From NCBI GenBank assembly GCA_022845895.1, contig AP025573.1, positions 2,142,501 to 2,206,500 of the forward strand: 64,000 nt of DNA, in the 5' to 3' direction. The position numbers and the translations under genes were made by a program. How positions within the stretch are numbered: the stretch's first letter is position 1; every line of letters starts with the position of its first letter. Shown here piece by piece: positions 1,608-34,511 of this stretch. This stretch comes from Lachnospiraceae bacterium. GTDB taxonomy: Bacteria > Bacillota > Clostridia > Lachnospirales > Lachnospiraceae. Under the pieces are notes generated by a model that saw nothing but the letters and a program-made list of their open reading frames with translations, did not search any database and was not told the origin of the DNA.

Positions 1608-2999
1608 TCAGTCAAACCATGCATGGCCATAACGCTCCAGCATCCTGTCCGCCTCGTCCGGTCCTGCATTGCCGGGCTCATACGCATATACAGGAAGCCG
1701 CTGGCTAACGTACCGTTCCCGTAAGGCATCTACATAGTTCCAGCTCGTCTCGACCTGGTCCCACTGGGAAAACCAGGACCGCTCCCCGCGGATGCATGCG
1801 CCAATCAGCCTCTCATACGCCTCCGGCGTATTCATCTGGTTGATATACGAACAGCTCTGGCAGAAGTCCATCTTCGCCTGGATAATCTCATCCAGCTCGC
1901 CAGGCCTCTTTATATTGAACTGCAGATATACGCCTTCCGTCGGCTGAATCTTAATATTCAGGATGTTCTGCGGCACGCCCGGTACGGGACTCTTAAATAC
2001 GACTGCCACCTGCATCTCCCGCTTCGTAAGCTTCTTCCCCGTCCGGATATAGAACGGCATCCCTCTCCACCTGTCATTCTCCACGAAGAGACGAAGCGCG
2101 GCATATGTCTCTGTGGCAGAATGGGCAGCCACGGCCTTCTCGCTCCGGTATCCTCTGTACTGTCCGAGCACCGCGCTTTTGGTGGCATCTTCCGGCAGGG
2201 CGAGCGCTTGAAGCACTTTCATCTGCTCCCCGTGCATCTCTTCCACCCCAGGTCCCTGGGGACGATCCATCGCAACTATCGTGAGTATCTGGAACAGGTG
2301 GTTCTGCATCATATCTTTCAGCGCACCGCTGTGATCATAATAACCGCCCCGTGTCTCGACGCCGACCTCTTCAAGGGCAGATATCTGAATGCATTCAATA
2401 TGATCTGCATCCCATATATTGCTGAAGATAGGGTTGGCAAACCGAATCGTCTGGATATTCCTGACCATCTCCTTTCCAAGATAATGGTCAATCCTGTATA
2501 TGTGGTCCGGCTGGAAAAATGCTTCCATCATGATATTCAGCTCTTCTGCCGCCTTAAGATTCTCCCCGAACGGCTTCTCGATGACTACCTTGCCGCTGCC
2601 GGCGCCATGGACGGCCTTGAGCCCTTTTACTATCGTACCGAAGAAGCGGGGCGCCACGGCGAAATAAAAGATATGGCCGCCGGCACCTGATGCTCTGTAG
2701 AACTCGTCCAGCCCTTTATATTCCTCTTCATCCGTAAAGTCCATGCGGTAATAGACGATACGCTCTGCCAGCTCTTTGTAAATCTCCTCCCTGTAGGAAA
2801 GACGGGCAAATCTCTCAACCCATTCTCCCGCCAGCTTCCGGTACTCCTCGCTCGTATAGTCTCTTCTTCCTATAATGACAATCTGCCCGTTGAGCTGCTC
2901 ATTATCCGCAGCCGCCATATTATAGAGCGCCGGTATCAGCTTACGGAACGTCAGGTCCCCGGTACCGCCGAAAATGGTAAATGTCTGCTCCTTATTCAT
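1608..2999 (-). CDS. zwf: glucose-6-phosphate 1-dehydrogenase
   Basis: Catalyses NADP-dependent oxidation of glucose 6-phosphate to 6-phosphogluconolactone, the first step of the oxidative pentose phosphate pathway. The 463-residue protein is slightly short for the family (about 490) but carries the nucleotide-binding GGTGDLTFRK at 11-20, VVIEKPFGEN near 140 and the active-site RIDHYLGKE at 169-177 with its catalytic histidine. The start is the ATG at 2999, which overlaps the last 8 bases of gnd; the longer frame upstream would run deep into gnd and is rejected. It is the last gene of the pgl-gnd-zwf operon, so the three oxidative steps are transcribed together, here in the unusual order lactonase, second dehydrogenase, first dehydrogenase. 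No terminator was obvious between 1490 and 1607. Confidence 0.95.
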   Translation of the reverse strand: MNKEQTFTIFGGTGDLTFRKLIPALYNMAAADNEQLNGQIVIIGRRDYTSEEYRKLAGEWVERFARLSYREEIYKELAERIVYYRMDFTDEEEYKGLDEFYRASGAGGHIFYFAVAPRFFGTIVKGLKAVHGAGSGKVVIEKPFGENLKAAEELNIMMEAFFQPDHIYRIDHYLGKEMVRNIQTIRFANPIFSNIWDADHIECIQISALEEVGVETRGGYYDHSGALKDMMQNHLFQILTIVAMDRPQGPGVEEMHGEQMKVLQALALPEDATKSAVLGQYRGYRSEKAVAAHSATETYAALRLFVENDRWRGMPFYIRTGKKLTKREMQVAVVFKSPVPGVPQNILNIKIQPTEGVYLQFNIKRPGELDEIIQAKMDFCQSCSYINQMNTPEAYERLIGACIRGERSWFSQWDQVETSWNYVDALRERYVSQRLPVYAYEPGNAGPDEADRMLERYGHAWFD

Positions 3000-4407
3000 T
3001 GTCCTGCCCCCAGTCGTGATGGAAAATGCCTTCCCGGTCTGTTCTTTCGAATGTGTGGGCGCCAAAGCAATCCCTCTGGGCCTGGATGAGATTCGCCCCC
3101 ACCGGCATCCCTCTGAATGCATCGATGTAAGCTTCCGCCTGGCTCATAGCCGGCAGCGGGATCCCGTTCTGGATGCCAAGGCACAGGATATTCTGAAGGC
3201 CCTCCTTCCCCCGGTTGATACCTTCCAGAAAATAAGAATCCAGCATCAGGTTCGTAAGTTCCGAATCCTTGTCAAATGCTTTTGTTATCTCATCGAGGAA
3301 CTGGGCCTGTATAATGCACCCGGCACGGAATATGGACGCAATCCTTCCGTAATTGAGATTCCACCCATACTCCGCAGAGGCATGTCTGAGCAGGTCAAAC
3401 CCCTGGGCATATGCGACGATTTTCGCAGTATAGAGACCCTTCCTGACCATATCGGCAAATGTCCCTTTATCCACAGCAGGCCTGTTCTGAGAACCGTTAA
3501 TCAACGATTGCGCTGCCTTTCTCTCTTCTATCCTGTTGGACATGATCCTAGCGTTGCAGGCTGCCGTAATCATAGATACGTTCACTCCCTGCCTAAGCGA
3601 CTCCAGGCTGGTCCAACGGCCGGTACCCTTCTGCCCCGCGCTGTCAAGTATATGATCCACCAGCTCCCCTTGGGCATAATCATCTGCTTCCCGGAATATC
3701 CTGGCCGTAATCTCAATCAGGTAGCTCTTCAGCTCCCCTTCGTTCCACTCTTCAAAGATAGCCGCGAGCTCTTCATTCGTATGACCTCCGGCGTATTTCA
3801 GCAGCAGATAGGCTTCCGCTATGAGCTGCATATCCGCATACTCTATCCCGTTATGCACCATCTTTACATAATGACCGGCACCGTCCGGACCCATGTAAGC
3901 ACAGCATGGTTCCCCTTTGGCTTTGGCCGCGACCGCTTCCAGCACCGGGGCGATGTGGCTGTAGGCGGACTCCTCTCCCCCCGGCATGATGGAAGGGCCG
4001 AAACGCGCGCCGTGCTCTCCCCCTGATACGCCGGTGCCAAAGTAATAGATGCCCTTCGACTTCAGACTTCTTTCACGCCTTCTCGTATCCTCAAAAAATG
4101 AGTTCCCTCCGTCCAGTATCATGTCTCCTTCATCCAGCAGAGGAACGAGCTGTTCGATTACCATATCGACCGGCTTTCCTGCCTTCACCATAATCAGGAA
4201 CCGTCTCGGACGCTCCTGGGACGCGACGAGCGACTCCATATCATAAAAAGGTATAAAGTTCTCATGCGGGTACTCCTTAACCACCTCGTCCGTCACTTTG
4301 CCGCTCCTGTTATATCCGCCTACTTTAAATCCATGGTCCGCCATGTTTAGGGCAATACTTCTTCCCATAACCGCCAGGCCGATGACTCCTATCTCTGTTA
4401 TCTGCAT
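2992..4407 (-). CDS. gnd: 6-phosphogluconate dehydrogenase, decarboxylating
   Basis: Oxidises 6-phosphogluconate to ribulose 5-phosphate and CO2, normally with NADP. The 471-residue length is typical for the long, homodimeric form. Visible are the Rossmann motif GVIGLAVMGRSIALNMADHG at the start, the substrate-binding VSGGEHGARFGPSIMPGG around 128-145, KMVHNGIEYADMQLIAEAY around 184 and DSAGQKGTGRWT around 256. A GTG at 4410 precedes the ATG at 4407; the ATG is preferred because AGGAGG lies 7 bases ahead. The ATG shares one base with the TGA of pgl (TGATG), a translational coupling arrangement. Confidence 0.96.
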   Translation of the reverse strand: MQITEIGVIGLAVMGRSIALNMADHGFKVGGYNRSGKVTDEVVKEYPHENFIPFYDMESLVASQERPRRFLIMVKAGKPVDMVIEQLVPLLDEGDMILDGGNSFFEDTRRRERSLKSKGIYYFGTGVSGGEHGARFGPSIMPGGEESAYSHIAPVLEAVAAKAKGEPCCAYMGPDGAGHYVKMVHNGIEYADMQLIAEAYLLLKYAGGHTNEELAAIFEEWNEGELKSYLIEITARIFREADDYAQGELVDHILDSAGQKGTGRWTSLESLRQGVNVSMITAACNARIMSNRIEERKAAQSLINGSQNRPAVDKGTFADMVRKGLYTAKIVAYAQGFDLLRHASAEYGWNLNYGRIASIFRAGCIIQAQFLDEITKAFDKDSELTNLMLDSYFLEGINRGKEGLQNILCLGIQNGIPLPAMSQAEAYIDAFRGMPVGANLIQAQRDCFGAHTFERTDREGIFHHDWGQDNE

Positions 4408-5477
4408 CACATTTCCTCCTTCATCGATTCACTGCCTTGCCTTATCGCCAGAGCAACTCCCTCCGGCATGCTGATACGGCTTCGGATTCCAATGATCCTG
4501 CCGCTCATCCTGTCTCTTTCCAAACTGACTACCTCTCCCGAAAAACGGTTTGCAACGAGAAGAAACCTTTCGTCTTCCGTCAGGACAAAATCCCTTGGAT
4601 GATCTCCGCCACATGGCACATGTTGAAGCACCGCCGCGCTGCTCCCGCCGACATCCACCACAGCCAGAAGATTCAGCCCCCGAATGGATATATACAAAAA
4701 CCTTTCATCTTCCGTAAGACGTACTGCCGCGGCAGACGCAGCCTGCTTCCTTCTCCCGCTTTGTGTATCTTCGGGAAGTATCGTTAACTGTTGGCGTAAC
4801 AGAAACGTATCCTCCTTCACTTCAAATATGAACAGCTCATTGCTCCATTCGCTCACCACATACAGCAGCGTATGTGACGCGTTAAACACTCCGTGCCTCG
4901 GCCCGCTTCCATCCGGGAACCGGACAGCGCCGCACGAGCGGAAACCATCTGTCCGGTCAAACAGCCGGATGCGATGCTGCGTCAGACAGGGAACCATCAC
5001 ATATGGCCCATGTAACATAATCTGATGGCAGCCTGCCTCCTCTCCATTTTCAATCCTGCCTGCAGCTTCAGGTCCTTCCTGTCCCATATGGTATATCATG
5101 ACCGTGCCATCATGGTAGTTGGCCGTATATGCGAAGGCTCCCTCCTGCAGGATGAAGCACGGCGTGTCTTTCTCCTCCAGTATCTCTCCTACAAAGCTTG
5201 CCCCCTTATCCGTAAGGCTTGCAAAGCATGTTCCTGCCCTGTTTTGCCGCTCCGTAGGAAAAGCAAGCATATCCCCTGCCAGGGACACCCATTTTGCATT
5301 GTGTGCTTCATATAGCAGTTCCGGTTCTGTCATGCGTCCGTTATTGAGGTTGACCATAAAACGATATACCCCTCTGCTCTTGTCAGACGCGTAGGTTCCG
5401 ACATACCCCTCTCTCCAGACATCTGATGTCTTCTCCCCATATGCTTCATCTTGTAACTTCTTATTTCCTTTTTCCAT
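4407..5477 (-). CDS. pgl: 6-phosphogluconolactonase, beta-propeller (YbhE/Pgl) type
   Basis: Predicted seven-bladed lactonase of 356 residues, the usual length of the YbhE-type 6-phosphogluconolactonases (PF10282), which hydrolyse the zwf product to 6-phosphogluconate. The recognisable parts are the YVGTYASDKSRGVYRF opening blade and repeated blades such as HGPYVMVPCLTQHRIRLFD, RHGVFNASHTLLYVVSEWSN and HPRDFVLTEDERFLLVANR. The family has few invariant residues, so the position in front of gnd and zwf is strong supporting evidence. The ATG at 5477 is chosen because a GGAGG stands 5-6 bases ahead; that GGAGG overlaps the alternative ATG at 5489. First gene of the pentose phosphate operon. Confidence 0.88.
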   Translation of the reverse strand: MEKGNKKLQDEAYGEKTSDVWREGYVGTYASDKSRGVYRFMVNLNNGRMTEPELLYEAHNAKWVSLAGDMLAFPTERQNRAGTCFASLTDKGASFVGEILEEKDTPCFILQEGAFAYTANYHDGTVMIYHMGQEGPEAAGRIENGEEAGCHQIMLHGPYVMVPCLTQHRIRLFDRTDGFRSCGAVRFPDGSGPRHGVFNASHTLLYVVSEWSNELFIFEVKEDTFLLRQQLTILPEDTQSGRRKQAASAAAVRLTEDERFLYISIRGLNLLAVVDVGGSSAAVLQHVPCGGDHPRDFVLTEDERFLLVANRFSGEVVSLERDRMSGRIIGIRSRISMPEGVALAIRQGSESMKEEM

Positions 5478-5525
5478 CGCAGCCTCCATATCTTTGACTT
5501 ATATTGCAACGATTATGCCGCCGCA

Positions 5526-5550
5526 TACTGTAATTATAATTATTACAGTA
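5526..5550. promoter_or_regulatory. operator-like perfect inverted repeat in the pgl promoter
   Basis: Arms TACTGTAAT (5526-5534) and ATTACAGTA (5542-5550) with a 7 bp AT-only spacer. The repeat covers the -10, most of the spacer and the predicted start of the pgl-gnd-zwf transcript. It also lies in the shared region upstream of the divergent ABC transporter operon. The cognate repressor is not identifiable from this window. Confidence 0.65.
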
Positions 5551-5561
5551 TAGAATGTCAA
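5533..5561 (-). promoter_or_regulatory. consensus sigma-A promoter of pgl-gnd-zwf
   Basis: Minus strand -35 TTGACA (5561-5556), exactly 17 bp, -10 TATAAT (5538-5533): a full match to the vegetative consensus. A promoter this strong normally needs a repressor, and a perfect inverted repeat overlaps its spacer and -10. Confidence 0.85.
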
Positions 5562-5671: not shown

Positions 5672-6385
5672 ATGAAAGATTTCATTCTGGAAACAAAAAA
5701 TTTATCAAAAAGATATGGAAGCCAACAGGCCGTAAGCAATATTTCCCTGGAAATCGAGCGCGGCAGCATCTATGGGCTTCTCGGACCGAATGGCGCAGGA
5801 AAATCTACGACACTCAAAATGCTTGTCGGCCTCCTCCGGCCATCCGCCGGACAGATTCTCTTCAACAGGAAGCCCTGGGAAAGGGCTGTATTGGGGAGAA
5901 TCGGCTCTCTGATCGAATCCCCCGCCTTGTACGGCAACCTTACGGCAAAAGAAAACCTTCTTGTGCATACAAAGCTTCTTGGCATACCAAAGGAAAAAAT
6001 CGATGAAGTGCTGGATACCGTCCATCTAAAAGGTACAGGCAAAAAACGGGCCGCCCAATTTTCCATGGGAATGAAACAGCGGCTCGGATTGGCCGTAGCC
6101 CTGCTCAGTGAACCAGAGCTGCTCATTCTCGACGAACCTGCCAACGGGCTTGACCCTTTTGGTATCCAGGAACTGCGCGGGCTTATCGCCTCATTACCTG
6201 ATAAGGGCATTACCGTACTCTTATCCAGCCACATACTCTCAGAGGTCGCACAGATTACAGACACGATTGGAATCATCGACAAAGGGCGGCTCTTGTTCCA
6301 AGGCACACCGGCACCCGGCAGGAATCTCGAGCAATTCTTCACAGATGTCATTCTCAAAGGAGGACAGAAAAGATGCATGGACTGA
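5672..6385 (+). CDS. lantibiotic-immunity-type ABC transporter, ATP-binding subunit
   Basis: ATPase of 237 residues of the BcrA/LanF (bacitracin and lantibiotic self-protection) type. Motifs in order: Walker A GPNGAGKST at 38-46, Q-loop region SLIESPALYGNLTAKENL, a signature written FSMGMKQRLGLA instead of LSGGQ, Walker B LLILDEPANGLDP and the switch SSHILSEV. The altered signature is usual for this subfamily. It should energise the two following membrane proteins to expel or shed peptide antibiotics from the membrane. The next gene overlaps its end by 13 bases. The ATG at 5672 has an AAAGGA about 10 bases ahead. Divergent from the pentose phosphate operon. No lantibiotic precursor or modification gene is nearby, so it is probably a defence or sensing transporter and not producer immunity. 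Confidence 0.9.
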   Translation: MKDFILETKNLSKRYGSQQAVSNISLEIERGSIYGLLGPNGAGKSTTLKMLVGLLRPSAGQILFNRKPWERAVLGRIGSLIESPALYGNLTAKENLLVHTKLLGIPKEKIDEVLDTVHLKGTGKKRAAQFSMGMKQRLGLAVALLSEPELLILDEPANGLDPFGIQELRGLIASLPDKGITVLLSSHILSEVAQITDTIGIIDKGRLLFQGTPAPGRNLEQFFTDVILKGGQKRCMD

Positions 6386-7140
6386 AATCAGAAATGCTAA
6401 AGTACAAAAGAACATTTATGCGTAGGCTCGTTGTCTTTATTCCCTTATTTTTCACAGCATATGCGGTGATAATGCATGCTACGCTTATGAAAAACCCGCT
6501 GTCTGAGAACAGCCGCTGGATGTGGCAGAGCCTGCTCGCTCTCGTATACAACTGGTGGCCACTGGCATTTCTGCCTCTTGGGTTTGCGTTATTTGCCGCA
6601 CTGGCAGCCGCGCAGGAAAAAAAATCCGGCAATTACCGGTCCCTTCGTGCTCATGATGTACCGCCCGCGGCACTATGGGCAGATAAAATCGCTGCTATGT
6701 CCATCCACAGCTTGTTTTCTACACTCATATTGACCATTTCGGCCGTCATGGCGGGTGTGCTGTCCGGGTCCGGCTCTGTTCCTTTCGGCCAGATTATTGC
6801 AGCAGGCGCACTCTGCTGGATCACTTCACTTGTACTTATTCCGCTCCAGCTGTGGGCTGCTACAAAGGGAGGCATCTTCCTGAGCATGGGAATCGGATTT
6901 GCAGGAATGGCTGTAGGTATCCTGGCCGCACCGCAGCCATACTGGATTGCAGTGCCATGGAGCTGGGCAATGAGACTAATGTGCCCTGTCATCGGAGTAC
7001 ACCCGAACGGTATGGTATTGGAAAGGGGGAACCCTCTGCTGGATGCTTCCGTCATACCAGTTGGAATCGCAGTGTCAATCGCTGCATTTCTCGTCGTCTC
7101 GTTTCTGACTGCGGCATGGTTTAAAAGGAGGGAAGAATGA
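6373..7140 (+). CDS. lantibiotic immunity ABC transporter permease, MutE/EpiE-like
   Basis: A 255-residue hydrophobic protein with about six predicted membrane segments, starting after a short basic stretch MHGLKSEMLKYKRTFMRR. The pattern (first helix after the basic start, a conserved NWWPLAFLPLG-type segment near 58, EKKSGNYRSLRAHDVPP in the first cytoplasmic loop) is that of the LanE-type permeases. It overlaps the ATPase gene by 13 bases and the next permease gene by 4, so the three subunits are translationally coupled. The membrane pair with the following protein would form the transporter channel. Substrate is unknown; peptide antibiotics are inferred from the family. Confidence 0.85.
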   Translation: MHGLKSEMLKYKRTFMRRLVVFIPLFFTAYAVIMHATLMKNPLSENSRWMWQSLLALVYNWWPLAFLPLGFALFAALAAAQEKKSGNYRSLRAHDVPPAALWADKIAAMSIHSLFSTLILTISAVMAGVLSGSGSVPFGQIIAAGALCWITSLVLIPLQLWAATKGGIFLSMGIGFAGMAVGILAAPQPYWIAVPWSWAMRLMCPVIGVHPNGMVLERGNPLLDASVIPVGIAVSIAAFLVVSFLTAAWFKRREE

Positions 7141-7919
7141 TGTGGATGCTCTTATCATCAGAATGGCTTAAGACGAAACGGACCGCTATCCGCTGGTTTA
7201 CCTTTTGCATGCCTGTCGTATTCTCATCTTGCGCGGCTGTCTACCTTTCGGTTCGCTCCGGATTTACCCAGAAGTTTGCCTTTGAGGGCTTTTTTACGCT
7301 GTGGACGGTATTCATCATTCCAGTAGGCGCCGGCATCCTTTCAGGTGCTGTCGTCCACTCAGAAGAACTGGCCGGAGATTTTAATAGCTTTTTAGCGACA
7401 GGGATACCGAGAGCCAGGTTATATCTCGGAAAATTTCTTTTACTTCTTTTCTGCCTGTCTGCGTGTACACTTATCGCTGTGCTGACCTTCTGCGCAGGCA
7501 TGAATATAGCGTCGCCTGGCCATGTTTCGCCTGGCCTGTTCATAGCCGCGGCCGCCCTATCTATTGCCGGCTCACTTCCACTGCTGGCACTTCATCTGTG
7601 GGTCAGTTTCTTATGGGGTACGGGCGCGTCTGTCGGCATGAGCATATGCGGCCTCTTAATGGCGGCATTGCTCGGGCCCACACGTCTGGGCTTAGCAGCA
7701 TGGCCGCTCGTCCCGTGGACGTGGCCCGTTAAGCTCGGGATGCTGCCTGGAGCCTGTTTCCTCAAAGACGGGGGAATCATGCCGTCCTCGGCAGTCATAT
7801 CCGGGATGGCACGAACCGGGGCCGCCGGACTGGCTGCAGTCTCTGCCGGCCTCACATTATTCTTGATAGGGGGAATCATATGGTTTAACATATGGGAAGG
7901 AAGGAAAACATATGGGTAA
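7137..7919 (+). CDS. lantibiotic immunity ABC transporter permease, MutG-like
   Basis: Second membrane subunit, 260 residues, paralogous in layout to the previous permease: short basic start LLSSEWLKTKRTAIRW, about six hydrophobic segments, and a cytoplasmic loop EELAGDFNSFLATGIPRARL corresponding to the one in its partner. The ATGATG start overlaps the preceding TGA (ATGA type). The stop is followed by 45 bases before the response regulator. Two dissimilar permeases after one ATPase is the standard F-E-G layout of lantibiotic immunity transporters. Confidence 0.85.
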   Translation: MMWMLLSSEWLKTKRTAIRWFTFCMPVVFSSCAAVYLSVRSGFTQKFAFEGFFTLWTVFIIPVGAGILSGAVVHSEELAGDFNSFLATGIPRARLYLGKFLLLLFCLSACTLIAVLTFCAGMNIASPGHVSPGLFIAAAALSIAGSLPLLALHLWVSFLWGTGASVGMSICGLLMAALLGPTRLGLAAWPLVPWTWPVKLGMLPGACFLKDGGIMPSSAVISGMARTGAAGLAAVSAGLTLFLIGGIIWFNIWEGRKTYG

Positions 7920-7964
7920 GCAGATACCGTGGCATATGCCGCCCAGCAGGAAAGGAGTTCTGTT

Positions 7965-8681
7965 TTGAGTAAAATATTAATCATAGACGATGAAGTCGAC
8001 CTTGTAACGCTTCTTGAAGAAGAGCTGAAGGCCAAAGGCCATGAGGTGCTGGCTGCCTATGACGGGCAGACGGGGATAGCACTGTCCAAAATGCAGCCGG
8101 ATCTTATTATTCTCGATATTATGATGCCGGGAAGGGACGGCTTTGACGTCTGCAGGGCAATCCGTGATGACGTGCTCTGCCCGGTCATCTTTCTGAGCGC
8201 AAAGCAATCAGAAGCCGATAAGGTCAAAGGGCTGACCATCGGCGCAGATGACTATATCACAAAGCCCTTCGGACTGCGAGAACTGATGGCCCGAATCGAG
8301 GCCAGCCTGCGCAGGGAAGCGCGGTCCCAGTATATCAACACAGAGGGCAGACGTTCGAAGCTGTATTTCGGTAACCTGTGCATCTGCATAAAGGAACGTG
8401 AGGTCATCGTAGATGGAAATAGCGTGCCCCTTACGAAACGGGAGTATGATATCGTTGAACTTCTGGCCCTCCATGCAGGGCAGGTTTTTTCAAGAGAACA
8501 GATTTATGAAAAAGTCTGGGGGTTTGATTCCGATGGCGATTCTGCAACCGTTGTCGAACGGATCAAAAGAATCCGGTCAAAGCTTGCCACCGCCGCACCA
8601 GGCAGCGGGTATATTCAAACGGTCTGGGGAATCGGATATAAATGGAACAAAATGCATGACCAAGGAGGAGAATTAGGATGA
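7965..8681 (+). CDS. OmpR-family response regulator
   Basis: Two-domain DNA-binding regulator, 238 residues. The receiver begins MSKILIIDDEVDLV with the acidic pair at 8-10, the phosphorylated aspartate D51 in LIILDIMMPG and the signalling lysine K100 in DYITKPFG. The winged-helix domain follows (LTKREYDIVELLALHAGQVFS, then ATVVERIKRIRSKL). The start is a TTG at 7965: GGAG lies 7 bases before it and the first receiver strand follows directly. An in-frame ATG at 7929 lacks a ribosome site and would add 12 residues foreign to the family. It overlaps the kinase gene by ATGA. It probably controls the adjacent transporter, as in other antimicrobial-peptide sensing modules. Confidence 0.92.
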   Translation: MSKILIIDDEVDLVTLLEEELKAKGHEVLAAYDGQTGIALSKMQPDLIILDIMMPGRDGFDVCRAIRDDVLCPVIFLSAKQSEADKVKGLTIGADDYITKPFGLRELMARIEASLRREARSQYINTEGRRSKLYFGNLCICIKEREVIVDGNSVPLTKREYDIVELLALHAGQVFSREQIYEKVWGFDSDGDSATVVERIKRIRSKLATAAPGSGYIQTVWGIGYKWNKMHDQGGELG

Positions 8682-10105
8682 GAAACGAATCATTTGCCCC
8701 CCTCTTCCGGCGGACCCTCATCATGATCGTAGCTGCCAGCGCGGCAGCGTCCGCGCTTACCTGTGCCCTCGCTTATTACCTGTTCACGAAGTCGCTTGGT
8801 AAAGATATATACCCGGCCGATTACTATGAGCGGCAGATTCCCGGCATCGAAGCATATGTCCGGGAAAAGAGCACAGAGCTCCTGGTTCAGGAGGGCGGAG
8901 CTGATCTGGCAGGTGTCATAAGAGGGGAAGATATGTCCTATCAGGTCGTAGATAATGACGGCAATATCCTGTATGGTACCCATTCGCAAAAGCTGTTTGA
9001 TACGAGAGACGAATTATTTGACAGCTTCCTGAATACAACCATCTTCCGAGACGGATATTATATCCATACCGTCCCTATTACAGAGGCCGGCGGGAATATA
9101 GAAGGAGCTGTGCTTCTCTCCTATCAGATCAAGATGACGTTCGCCAATGACCGGGGACGTCTGACCGCTGTAGCTATAGGCATTGCTCTGTTTTCACCGT
9201 TTATGTATATTATCGGCTTTACATTTCTTTTTTCCAGGATACTGGCTGAGAAAATCAATTACCCGCTTCGGCTACTTACCGACGCTGCCAAGAACATACG
9301 GGAGAAGAACCTTGACTTTGAAATCGACTATCATTCAGATAATGAGCTGGGCAGGCTCTGCAGCGCATTTTCTGATATGAAAGAGGAATTGAAAAGCTCG
9401 TTGTCCGCCCAATGGCATATGGAACAGGAACGAGTCTTCATGACAGAGGCTCTGGCCCACGATTTGAAATCTCCTCTTTCTGTCATTCTGGCATATACGG
9501 ATGCGCTGCTGGACAGCACTCCCGACGACAGCGAAAAGTGGCACCGTTATCTTTCCGTCATAAAGGCCAACACAGAAAAAAGTGCCTCTCTCGTCCAGAG
9601 AATGCAGGATGCGGCGGATCTGGAGCGGCCGGATATCCAGCCACAGCCCACCGCCATAGATATACAGGAACTGCTGTCGCAAAAGGTACAGGATTATCGA
9701 TTACAGTCCTGCTGCAAAGACATCGAGCTGGCATTGGATATACACGGCGACTTGCTCTCCCCCGTCAGGACGGATGCGGAAATGCTGTCGCGTATCATTG
9801 ACAATATCATATCCAACAGCATGCAGTTTACACCCCGGGGCGGCAGGATTACGATAGATGTATCGCTTGAAAAGGAGCGGGTATGTTATCGAATCTGTGA
9901 TTCCGGACCTGGATTCGGCAGCCAGGATCTGCAGAAAGCGTTTGACAGATTTTACAGAGGCGATATCGCCCGCAGCACGAAAGGCGGACATTCGGGGCTT
10001 GGACTTTATATCGTAAAGCAGCTTGCAGAACAGCTTGGAGGCTCCGCCGAAATTGAAAATTCCAGTTCAGGCGGAGCGTGCGTGATATTTTGGCACAGCG
10101 TTTAA
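8678..10105 (+). CDS. sensor histidine kinase
   Basis: Membrane kinase of 475 residues. One membrane helix at about 12-37 and another at about 163-188 enclose an extracytoplasmic domain of roughly 125 residues, then HAMP, dimerisation domain with the phospho-accepting H261 in EALAHDLKSPLS, and the ATPase domain with N box IIDNIISNSMQFT, G1 DSGPGFG and G2 GGHSGLGLYIV. The sizeable outer domain suggests direct ligand sensing, unlike the intramembrane-sensing BceS kinases. Its start overlaps the response regulator stop (ATGA), so both are made together. Input signal unknown; the neighbouring transporter suggests a peptide antibiotic. Confidence 0.93.
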   Translation: MRNESFAPLFRRTLIMIVAASAAASALTCALAYYLFTKSLGKDIYPADYYERQIPGIEAYVREKSTELLVQEGGADLAGVIRGEDMSYQVVDNDGNILYGTHSQKLFDTRDELFDSFLNTTIFRDGYYIHTVPITEAGGNIEGAVLLSYQIKMTFANDRGRLTAVAIGIALFSPFMYIIGFTFLFSRILAEKINYPLRLLTDAAKNIREKNLDFEIDYHSDNELGRLCSAFSDMKEELKSSLSAQWHMEQERVFMTEALAHDLKSPLSVILAYTDALLDSTPDDSEKWHRYLSVIKANTEKSASLVQRMQDAADLERPDIQPQPTAIDIQELLSQKVQDYRLQSCCKDIELALDIHGDLLSPVRTDAEMLSRIIDNIISNSMQFTPRGGRITIDVSLEKERVCYRICDSGPGFGSQDLQKAFDRFYRGDIARSTKGGHSGLGLYIVKQLAEQLGGSAEIENSSSGGACVIFWHSV

Positions 10106-22190: not shown

Positions 22191-22271
22191 CAGGGTAATT
22201 GGGGACGGAGGTTTTTTAAAAAACCTCCGTCCCCAATTCATTTTAACGTGTCCCTTTTTATTTTTACCCTG
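22191..22271. repeat. intergenic palindrome, family A copy 1
   Basis: Perfect 42 bp palindrome (22197-22238) with arms containing GGGGACGGAGGTTTTTT and centre at the T6/A6 junction. Outer arms CAGGGTA (22191-22197) and TACCCTG (22265-22271) enclose it, but the right side carries an extra segment with TTTTAACGTGTCCC, a sequence also found at the edge of copy 2. It lies after the aminopeptidase stop and may act as a terminator. Confidence 0.85.
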
Positions 22272-23616: not shown

Positions 23617-23692
23617 GGGGACACGTTAAAACGAAATGGGGACGGAGGTTTTTTAAAAAACCTCCGTCCCCATTTCGTTTTAACGTGTCCCC
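23617..23692. repeat. intergenic palindrome, family A copy 2 (76 bp, perfect)
   Basis: Every base pairs about the centre between 23654 and 23655. Arms run from GGGGACACGTTAAAACG through AAATGGGGACGGAGG to the T6/A6 centre. It starts 6 bases after the carboxypeptidase stop and contains the last codons and stop of the convergent ABC-class ATPase gene. Confidence 0.95.
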
Positions 23693-31383: not shown

Positions 31384-31431
31384 TTCATAGGGGTCAGACC
31401 CCTTTGTCCACAGGGGTCTGACCCCTATGAA
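31384..31431. repeat. palindrome in the permease leader, family B copy 1
   Basis: Stem of 20 bp (31384-31403 with 31412-31431) and an 8-base loop. Each arm is itself a palindrome, AGGGGTCAGACCCCT and AGGGGTCTGACCCCT. In the transcript it would form a very stable hairpin a few bases upstream of the permease ribosome site. Confidence 0.92.
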
Positions 31432-34482: not shown

Positions 34483-34511
34483 ATTATAAAGAGAACCCGG
34501 CTGTTTGTCAA
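34483..34511 (-). promoter_or_regulatory. consensus promoter of alaS
   Basis: Minus strand -35 TTGACA (34511-34506), 17 bp, -10 TATAAT (34488-34483): a full match to consensus. A family A palindrome begins 6 bases upstream of the -35. The leader between start and ATG can form a CCCGG/CCGGG hairpin (about 34439-34463). Confidence 0.85.

Follow-up and report, generated by a model that had tools for sequence, protein, structure and literature searches.

In Escherichia coli, zwf is under the redox control of SoxRS, and the supply of NADPH is raised under redox stress. Staphylococcus aureus HypR belongs to the Rrf2 family; the Bacillus subtilis protein of the same name is a member of another family. 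According to the excerpts of the literature used here, HypR of S. aureus senses HOCl via a C33-C99' disulfide and controls merA, the product of which is an NADPH-dependent HOSCN reductase (PMC10715087, PMC6299908). It binds TGTAA-x9-TTACA, and the core TGTAA-N9-TTACA is likewise given for SifR of Streptococcus pneumoniae (PMC9218516, excerpts). In SifR a single cysteine reacts with quinones, a CPV motif is quoted for B. subtilis YwnA, and the connector of Fe-S-type Rrf2 proteins carries the three-cysteine motif C-X5-C-X5-C (PMC9218516, excerpts).

Here we describe an operator upstream of the oxidative pentose phosphate genes pgl-gnd-zwf in a stretch of 64,000 nucleotides from a Lachnospiraceae genome (hereafter the window). 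The window genome, G000, is referred to together with G001, G002 and G003 under the genus label Extibacter. In all likelihood, judging from the comparisons below, the repeat in front of pgl is the operator of a HypR-like thiol-switch Rrf2 repressor, from which oxidants would release pgl-gnd-zwf as an NADPH supply for oxidant defence. Whereas SoxRS of E. coli is an activator of another family, here a putative Rrf2 repressor would act on the whole pgl-gnd-zwf operon. The system resembles HypR-merA of S. aureus in its operator core, in the best NCBIfam match of the repressor, in cysteines at the C33/C99 positions and in an RclA/MerA-like reductase behind the site. The site in the window has this core and longer arms, a comparison with the hypR operator (known from the excerpts of PMC9218516) that does not extend base by base to the outer ACTG/CAGT. 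Compared with the S. aureus HypR regulon, given as hypR-merA in the excerpted sources, the putative regulon here is wider and additionally comprises pgl-gnd-zwf, TlpA-like and rhodanese lipoproteins and a NapH-like protein. With SifR and YwnA the system shares the operator core and the Rrf2 fold; unlike HypR, these are monothiol regulators, with catE, ywnB, yhdA and fre as targets (PMC9218516, excerpts).

The pgl-gnd-zwf operon and its promoter

The genes and regulatory elements of the locus are as follows.

1608..3122, minus strand: zwf, glucose-6-phosphate dehydrogenase, divergent type (TIGR00871, 465.9 bits, cut-off 400.6)
2992..4410, minus strand: gnd, NADP-dependent 6-phosphogluconate dehydrogenase (TIGR00873, 646.5 bits, cut-off 426.7)
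4407..5489, minus strand: pgl, 6-phosphogluconolactonase, beta-propeller type (PF10282, E 5.9e-55)
5525..5551, no strand: operator, perfect inverted repeat ATACTGTAAT-N7-ATTACAGTAT with core TGTAA-N9-TTACA (from the sequence)
5533..5538, minus strand: -10 box TATAAT, within the operator (exact)
5556..5561, minus strand: -35 box TTGACA (exact)

The start of pgl is probably 5477, an ATG located 5 nt downstream of GGAGG, with which the first ATG, at 5489, overlaps. The zwf ORF is longer than its domain, which begins at residue 45. A divergent operon (5672-10105) encodes an ABC transporter of the lantibiotic-immunity type, for which the galliderm_ABC, MutE and MutG models score over cut-off, together with a response regulator and a histidine kinase. 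This operon is absent at that place in G002, and in G003 apparently only a short remnant ORF is left, in which ends of kinase and ATPase are fused.

On the minus strand, TTGACA (5561-5556) and TATAAT (5538-5533) are separated by 17 bp and both match exactly, forming a promoter that reads leftwards into pgl-gnd-zwf. Its -10 box lies inside the repeat, in the right-hand part. A preliminary description had noted this exact promoter and the inverted repeat over its -10, with 9-bp arms (TACTGTAAT-TATAATT-ATTACAGTA, 5526-5550). Both are present; the perfect arms measure 10 bp rather than 9, giving a 10-7-10 arrangement at 5525-5551. For the 9-7-9 pattern with up to three mismatches, 0.02 occurrences per window are expected by chance. 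An exact TTGACA-17-TATAAT is found twice in the window, at 5561 and at 34511 on the same strand, and in none of 30 dinucleotide shuffles. Perfect repeats with arms of at least 9 bp occur in 59 frames of the real window, as against a mean of 3.6 and a maximum of 9 overlapping frames per shuffled window, most of the 59 being other palindromes elsewhere. A 9-bp palindrome by itself is thus unremarkable, but the combination of repeat and promoter is far beyond chance in the window. Among the other palindromes, a perfect one of 30 bp (GGACGGAGG...CCTCCGTCC) is present twice, at 22203-22232 and 23640-23669, 1.4 kb apart, and a further pair of palindromes, related to each other (GTCAGACCCC...), lies at 31393 and 43724.

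The perfect operator is unique in the single-contig genome of 4.16 Mb, with two more places at three mismatches. Genome-wide there is no excess of the motif over a reversed-pattern control: at two mismatches, G000 to G003 hold 6, 7, 7 and 10 matches against 14, 6, 5 and 8, and at three mismatches G000 holds 25 against 39. Copy number as an argument for a regulon was therefore rejected, and the significance of the operator lies in its position and conservation. At repressor promoters, and at some targets, the site is commonly accompanied by a second copy in tandem, at a distance of 26-29 bp; the window's site has none.

Conservation of the operator at pgl

Lack of conservation at pgl in relatives had been set beforehand as a result that would refute the reading of the repeat. 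It was not borne out: the site is kept at 10 of 11 pgl operons. In the four Extibacter genomes the operator arms at pgl are identical, the site also being present in G002, where the gene order of the pgl operon is normal. The more distant operons of G018, G049, G194, G260, G296 and G345 likewise carry it over the -10 box, the Pgl proteins of G018 and G049 being 44-45% identical to that of the window. In G345 (Clostridium transplantifaecale) the site precedes rpiA-pgl-gnd; at locus L040 it stands before rpiA, the first gene of the pgl operon there. TTGACA-17-TATAAT is exact at seven of the 10 sites and departs by one or two changes at the remaining three, and the register of operator and promoter is the same at all 10.

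The single miss is G225, which has the repressor described below and a divergent zwf, and no operator at its pgl operon. Its pgl-gnd-zwf (L190:6714-8220) has a near-consensus promoter and would make a natural experiment on constitutive expression.

The register extends beyond pgl. A promoter matching at least 10 of 12 positions, with its -10 at operator positions 13-18, accompanies 34 of 43 sites (32 of these with exact TTGACA), a count that is biased because the 43 sites were chosen as promoter-placed; three of them (L126, L158 and L167) belong to tandem pairs and were oriented by the distal copy. In a less biased control, comprising all 30 loci retrieved from a family-wide search, a -35 box of at least 5/6 in register was found for 6 of the 11 sites from repressor-bearing genomes and for 1 of 19 from others.

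A HypR-like Rrf2 gene carries the same site

The family-wide pattern search, allowing one mismatch, matched 41 of 299 genomes, many of the matches lying inside long ORFs. The matches placed in promoters preceded redox genes and, in the case of G278, a gene of the Rrf2 family. With the G278 protein as query, close matches (E 1.5e-38 or better) were obtained in 9 of 116 relatives, all four Extibacter genomes among them, the next match being at 6e-16. The G000 protein gave a bimodal result in the 299 family genomes: 17 at E 1.4e-43 or better and one more at 2.5e-13.

The candidate repressor gene of the window genome (G000:C1:3143793-3144212, 140 aa) lies 1.0 Mb away, and no regulator of the operon is encoded in the window, as the preliminary description had held. 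It is the last gene of an operon TlpA-like - NapH-like - Rrf2, which is preceded by the second-best site in the genome. The gene type that recurs beside the sites is Rrf2; the earlier suggestion of a GntR or BlaI regulator is not supported, no gene of these types recurring there. In the preliminary description, control of the pathway could not be matched to a known regulator; a known type can now be named, the core having been published as the operator bound by Rrf2 repressors of the HypR/SifR type (PMC9218516, excerpts). Overall, the earlier interpretation is partly supported.

A site with up to two mismatches precedes the gene or its presumed operon in 18 of 20 orthologs, at 15 bp to 3.0 kb upstream of the repressor gene, and also in G345, making 19 of 21; for distant sites, intervening genes on the same strand were assumed to form an operon. 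In G345 the order is sites, RclA/MerA-like, CcdA-TlpA-like, Rrf2. No site within two mismatches was found at the ortholog of G194 (L163) and at the second copy of G260 (L159). Both lie beside a GTPase gene that we take to be HflX-like, and they possibly form a separate branch. In the Extibacter genomes, an AraC-family gene (L117:6164-7060), with a helix-turn-helix domain near the SoxS/Rob models, is divergent from TlpA-NapH-Rrf2 and has the site-bearing intergenic region in common with it.

As a control, loci of 21 Rrf2 paralogs were screened. One of them (L100), a YwnA-like gene with the CPV motif, has such a site directly upstream, so the operator core is not specific to the HypR-like subgroup. 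With up to one mismatch, the motif is found in 13 of 17 repressor-bearing and 28 of 282 other family genomes (Fisher p 1.5e-9), and exact ACTGTAAYN7RTTACAGT in 9 of 17 and 3 of 282, respectively (p 1.1e-10; counted by eye), p-values that overstate independence because the genomes are related.

An order-wide exact search yielded a match in 5 of 392 genomes and controls in 2; its new loci (L113-L116) are outside the present analysis. A class-wide profile search gave matches in 16 of 391 genomes. Among the 11 loci considered (L201-L211, a count that leaves out five further matches), five have a site within two mismatches and eight within three; L206, in which the operon starts beyond the locus, L210 and L211 have none at up to three. 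At five of the 11, the repressor gene is directly followed by an RclA/MerA-like gene.

Other operons with the site and co-occurrence with zwf

Conserved sites in Extibacter stand before three operons: pgl-gnd-zwf, TlpA-NapH-Rrf2 and an RclA/MerA-like reductase gene, the last in 4 of 4 genomes. This reductase scores best with two NCBIfam models, reaching 564.5 bits with RclA (cut-off 740) and 535.9 bits with MerA, the hypothiocyanous acid reductase (cut-off 650), both scores being under cut-off. In G003 (E. muris; L198:3543-4605) the gene seems to be split into two ORFs; it is intact in G000, G001 and G002. In relatives, the genes behind sites encode thioredoxin and thioredoxin reductase, rhodanese lipoproteins, CcdA-TlpA-like proteins, MsrAB and, in G040, a desulfoferrodoxin operon. 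Tandem sites in G049 (L173:2735-4389) are flanked on one side by the end of an rnf-type operon (RnfB, 4589-5377) and on the other by a 507-aa ORF that reads away from it; their target is probably this ORF and not rnf.

At an E-value cut-off of 1e-60, zwf is present in 12 of the 299 family genomes and was not found in the other 287. Two types can be told apart. Divergent zwf (466-491 bits) occurs in eight genomes, all of which carry the repressor, and classic zwf (591-606 bits) in four, none of which does (hypergeometric p 1.7e-11, ignoring kinship). No site with up to three mismatches precedes the four classic zwf operons; one three-mismatch match lies inside a zwf ORF (L194).

The candidate repressor protein and alternative regulators

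The candidate repressor matches PF02082 (Rrf2) with 83.3 bits, over the cut-off of 30, and TIGR00738 with 59.7 bits, under the cut-off of 73.3. Its best NCBIfam match is HypR (NF041852), model positions 1-134 aligning to residues 1-136. Because the score of 85.8 bits is below the curated cut-off of 180, we refer to the protein as HypR-like and not as HypR. The AlphaFold2 model (pLDDT 87.6, confident) is a winged helix with the long dimer helix of solved Rrf2 proteins. The best 36 PDB matches in Foldseek (E up to 3.6e-4) bear the names of Rrf2-type proteins or of putative regulators of this type; the closest are 1YLF, RsrR, 3K69 and IscR-type structures, and 1XD7 (YwnA) is among the matches by both sequence and fold.

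The G000 repressor has cysteines at positions 32, 76, 97, 118 and 137, a pattern in which the C-X5-C-X5-C cluster motif of Fe-S Rrf2 proteins of the IscR/NsrR type is not found. C32 and C97 are present in all 20 copies and C118 in 19; C32 and C97 were matched to C33 and C99 of HypR by position and model span, not by alignment to a HypR sequence. The invariance of C32, as in the dithiol HypR, speaks against a reading that keeps both repressor and operator and exchanges the signal, namely a quinone or other electrophile sensed through a single thiol in the manner of SifR and YwnA, or low-level oxygen, in place of HOCl/HOSCN. So does the recurrent partner of the repressor, which is RclA/MerA-like and not a catechol dioxygenase. 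We consider such a signal rather unlikely, although some observations favour it: HypR and the quinone-reactive SifR have a common operator core, C97 aligns with a conserved cysteine of 1YLF and, according to the excerpts of PMC9218516, of YwnA and SifR, and the regulon of relatives includes desulfoferrodoxin, thioredoxin and MsrAB.

Another Rrf2 paralog, for instance the iscR-like gene about 9 kb away, is a very improbable regulator. The four Rrf2 genes found in G000 include a site only at the HypR-like operon; the iscR-like gene and two genes beside enzyme genes of the cysteine/methionine type have none at their own promoters. Moreover, the HypR-like gene tracks the motif and the iscR-like gene does not, despite lying close to the operon in this genus and belonging to the same superfamily.

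An operator of the Fur family (PerR-like), hardly credible on the present data, was rejected. The sequence does parse into hexamers, TGTAAT-TATAAT-T-ATTACA, four PF01475 matches are present in the genome, and it would be reasonable for peroxide to govern the supply of NADPH. The middle hexamer, however, is merely the -10 box, the seven central positions vary among the 43 sites whereas the outer arms do not, and none of the four Fur-family loci (L004-L007) has a site within two mismatches.

Finally, a chance palindrome in an AT-rich promoter can be dismissed as practically negligible, for although perfect 9-bp arms do arise by chance in 64 kb and the motif shows no genome-wide excess, the arms are kept in fixed register at 10 of 11 pgl operons, including those of the 44-45% identical orthologs, and recur at the repressor operons.

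Discussion

Operator, promoter register, conservation, the sites at repressor operons, regulon content and cysteine conservation are read from the sequences, and from these we infer binding, repression, inducer and induction. According to the proposed HypR-like model, a reduced repressor dimer would bind TGTAA-N9-TTACA, covering the -10 box and probably +1, and would thereby block RNA polymerase and keep pgl-gnd-zwf off; from the geometry of operator and promoter, the tight repression assumed in the preliminary description is plausible. Oxidation or modification of C32/C97 by thiol-reactive oxidants (HOCl, HOSCN, disulfide or electrophile stress) would release the repressor. This release would also open expression of the RclA/MerA-like flavoprotein reductase, the TlpA-like lipoprotein, the NapH-like ferredoxin membrane protein and the repressor gene itself, and the oxidative pentose phosphate pathway would then furnish NADPH for the reductase and for thioredoxin-type repair. 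Because the same site stands before a repressor gene of the thiol-sensing type and a reductase of the oxidant-resistance type, the pathway is probably turned on as a means of surviving oxidants.

Operator and candidate regulator belong to a known kind, for which the pentose phosphate target seems new. Among the full-text literature matches listed, which do not extend to subscription papers or RegPrecise, none places a repressor of the Rrf2/HypR type on pgl, gnd or zwf, and the words pentose and zwf are absent from PMC10715087, PMC6299908 and PMC9218516. An anonymous operator has become a testable regulon, with a named candidate repressor gene, three putative target operons in the window's genome and a chemical hypothesis, and repressor and operator could, if the model is true, serve as a candidate biosensor pair.

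The proposed regulon would connect central carbon metabolism in gut Clostridia with a defence against oxidants that react with thiols. More tentatively, and with the case for it not quite evenly balanced, the oxidative pentose phosphate pathway may here be an inducible accessory of oxidant defence and not a housekeeping route, the divergent pgl-gnd-zwf travelling with the HypR-like repressor, whose regulon would supply both the source of NADPH and the reductase that uses it. Many bacteria of epithelial surfaces possess RclA (PMC7527725, excerpts). If this is true, commensal anaerobes could meet the oxidants of host peroxidases (HOCl/HOSCN) with a dedicated sugar shunt, and the pentose phosphate branch in Lachnospiraceae would best be seen as stress equipment.
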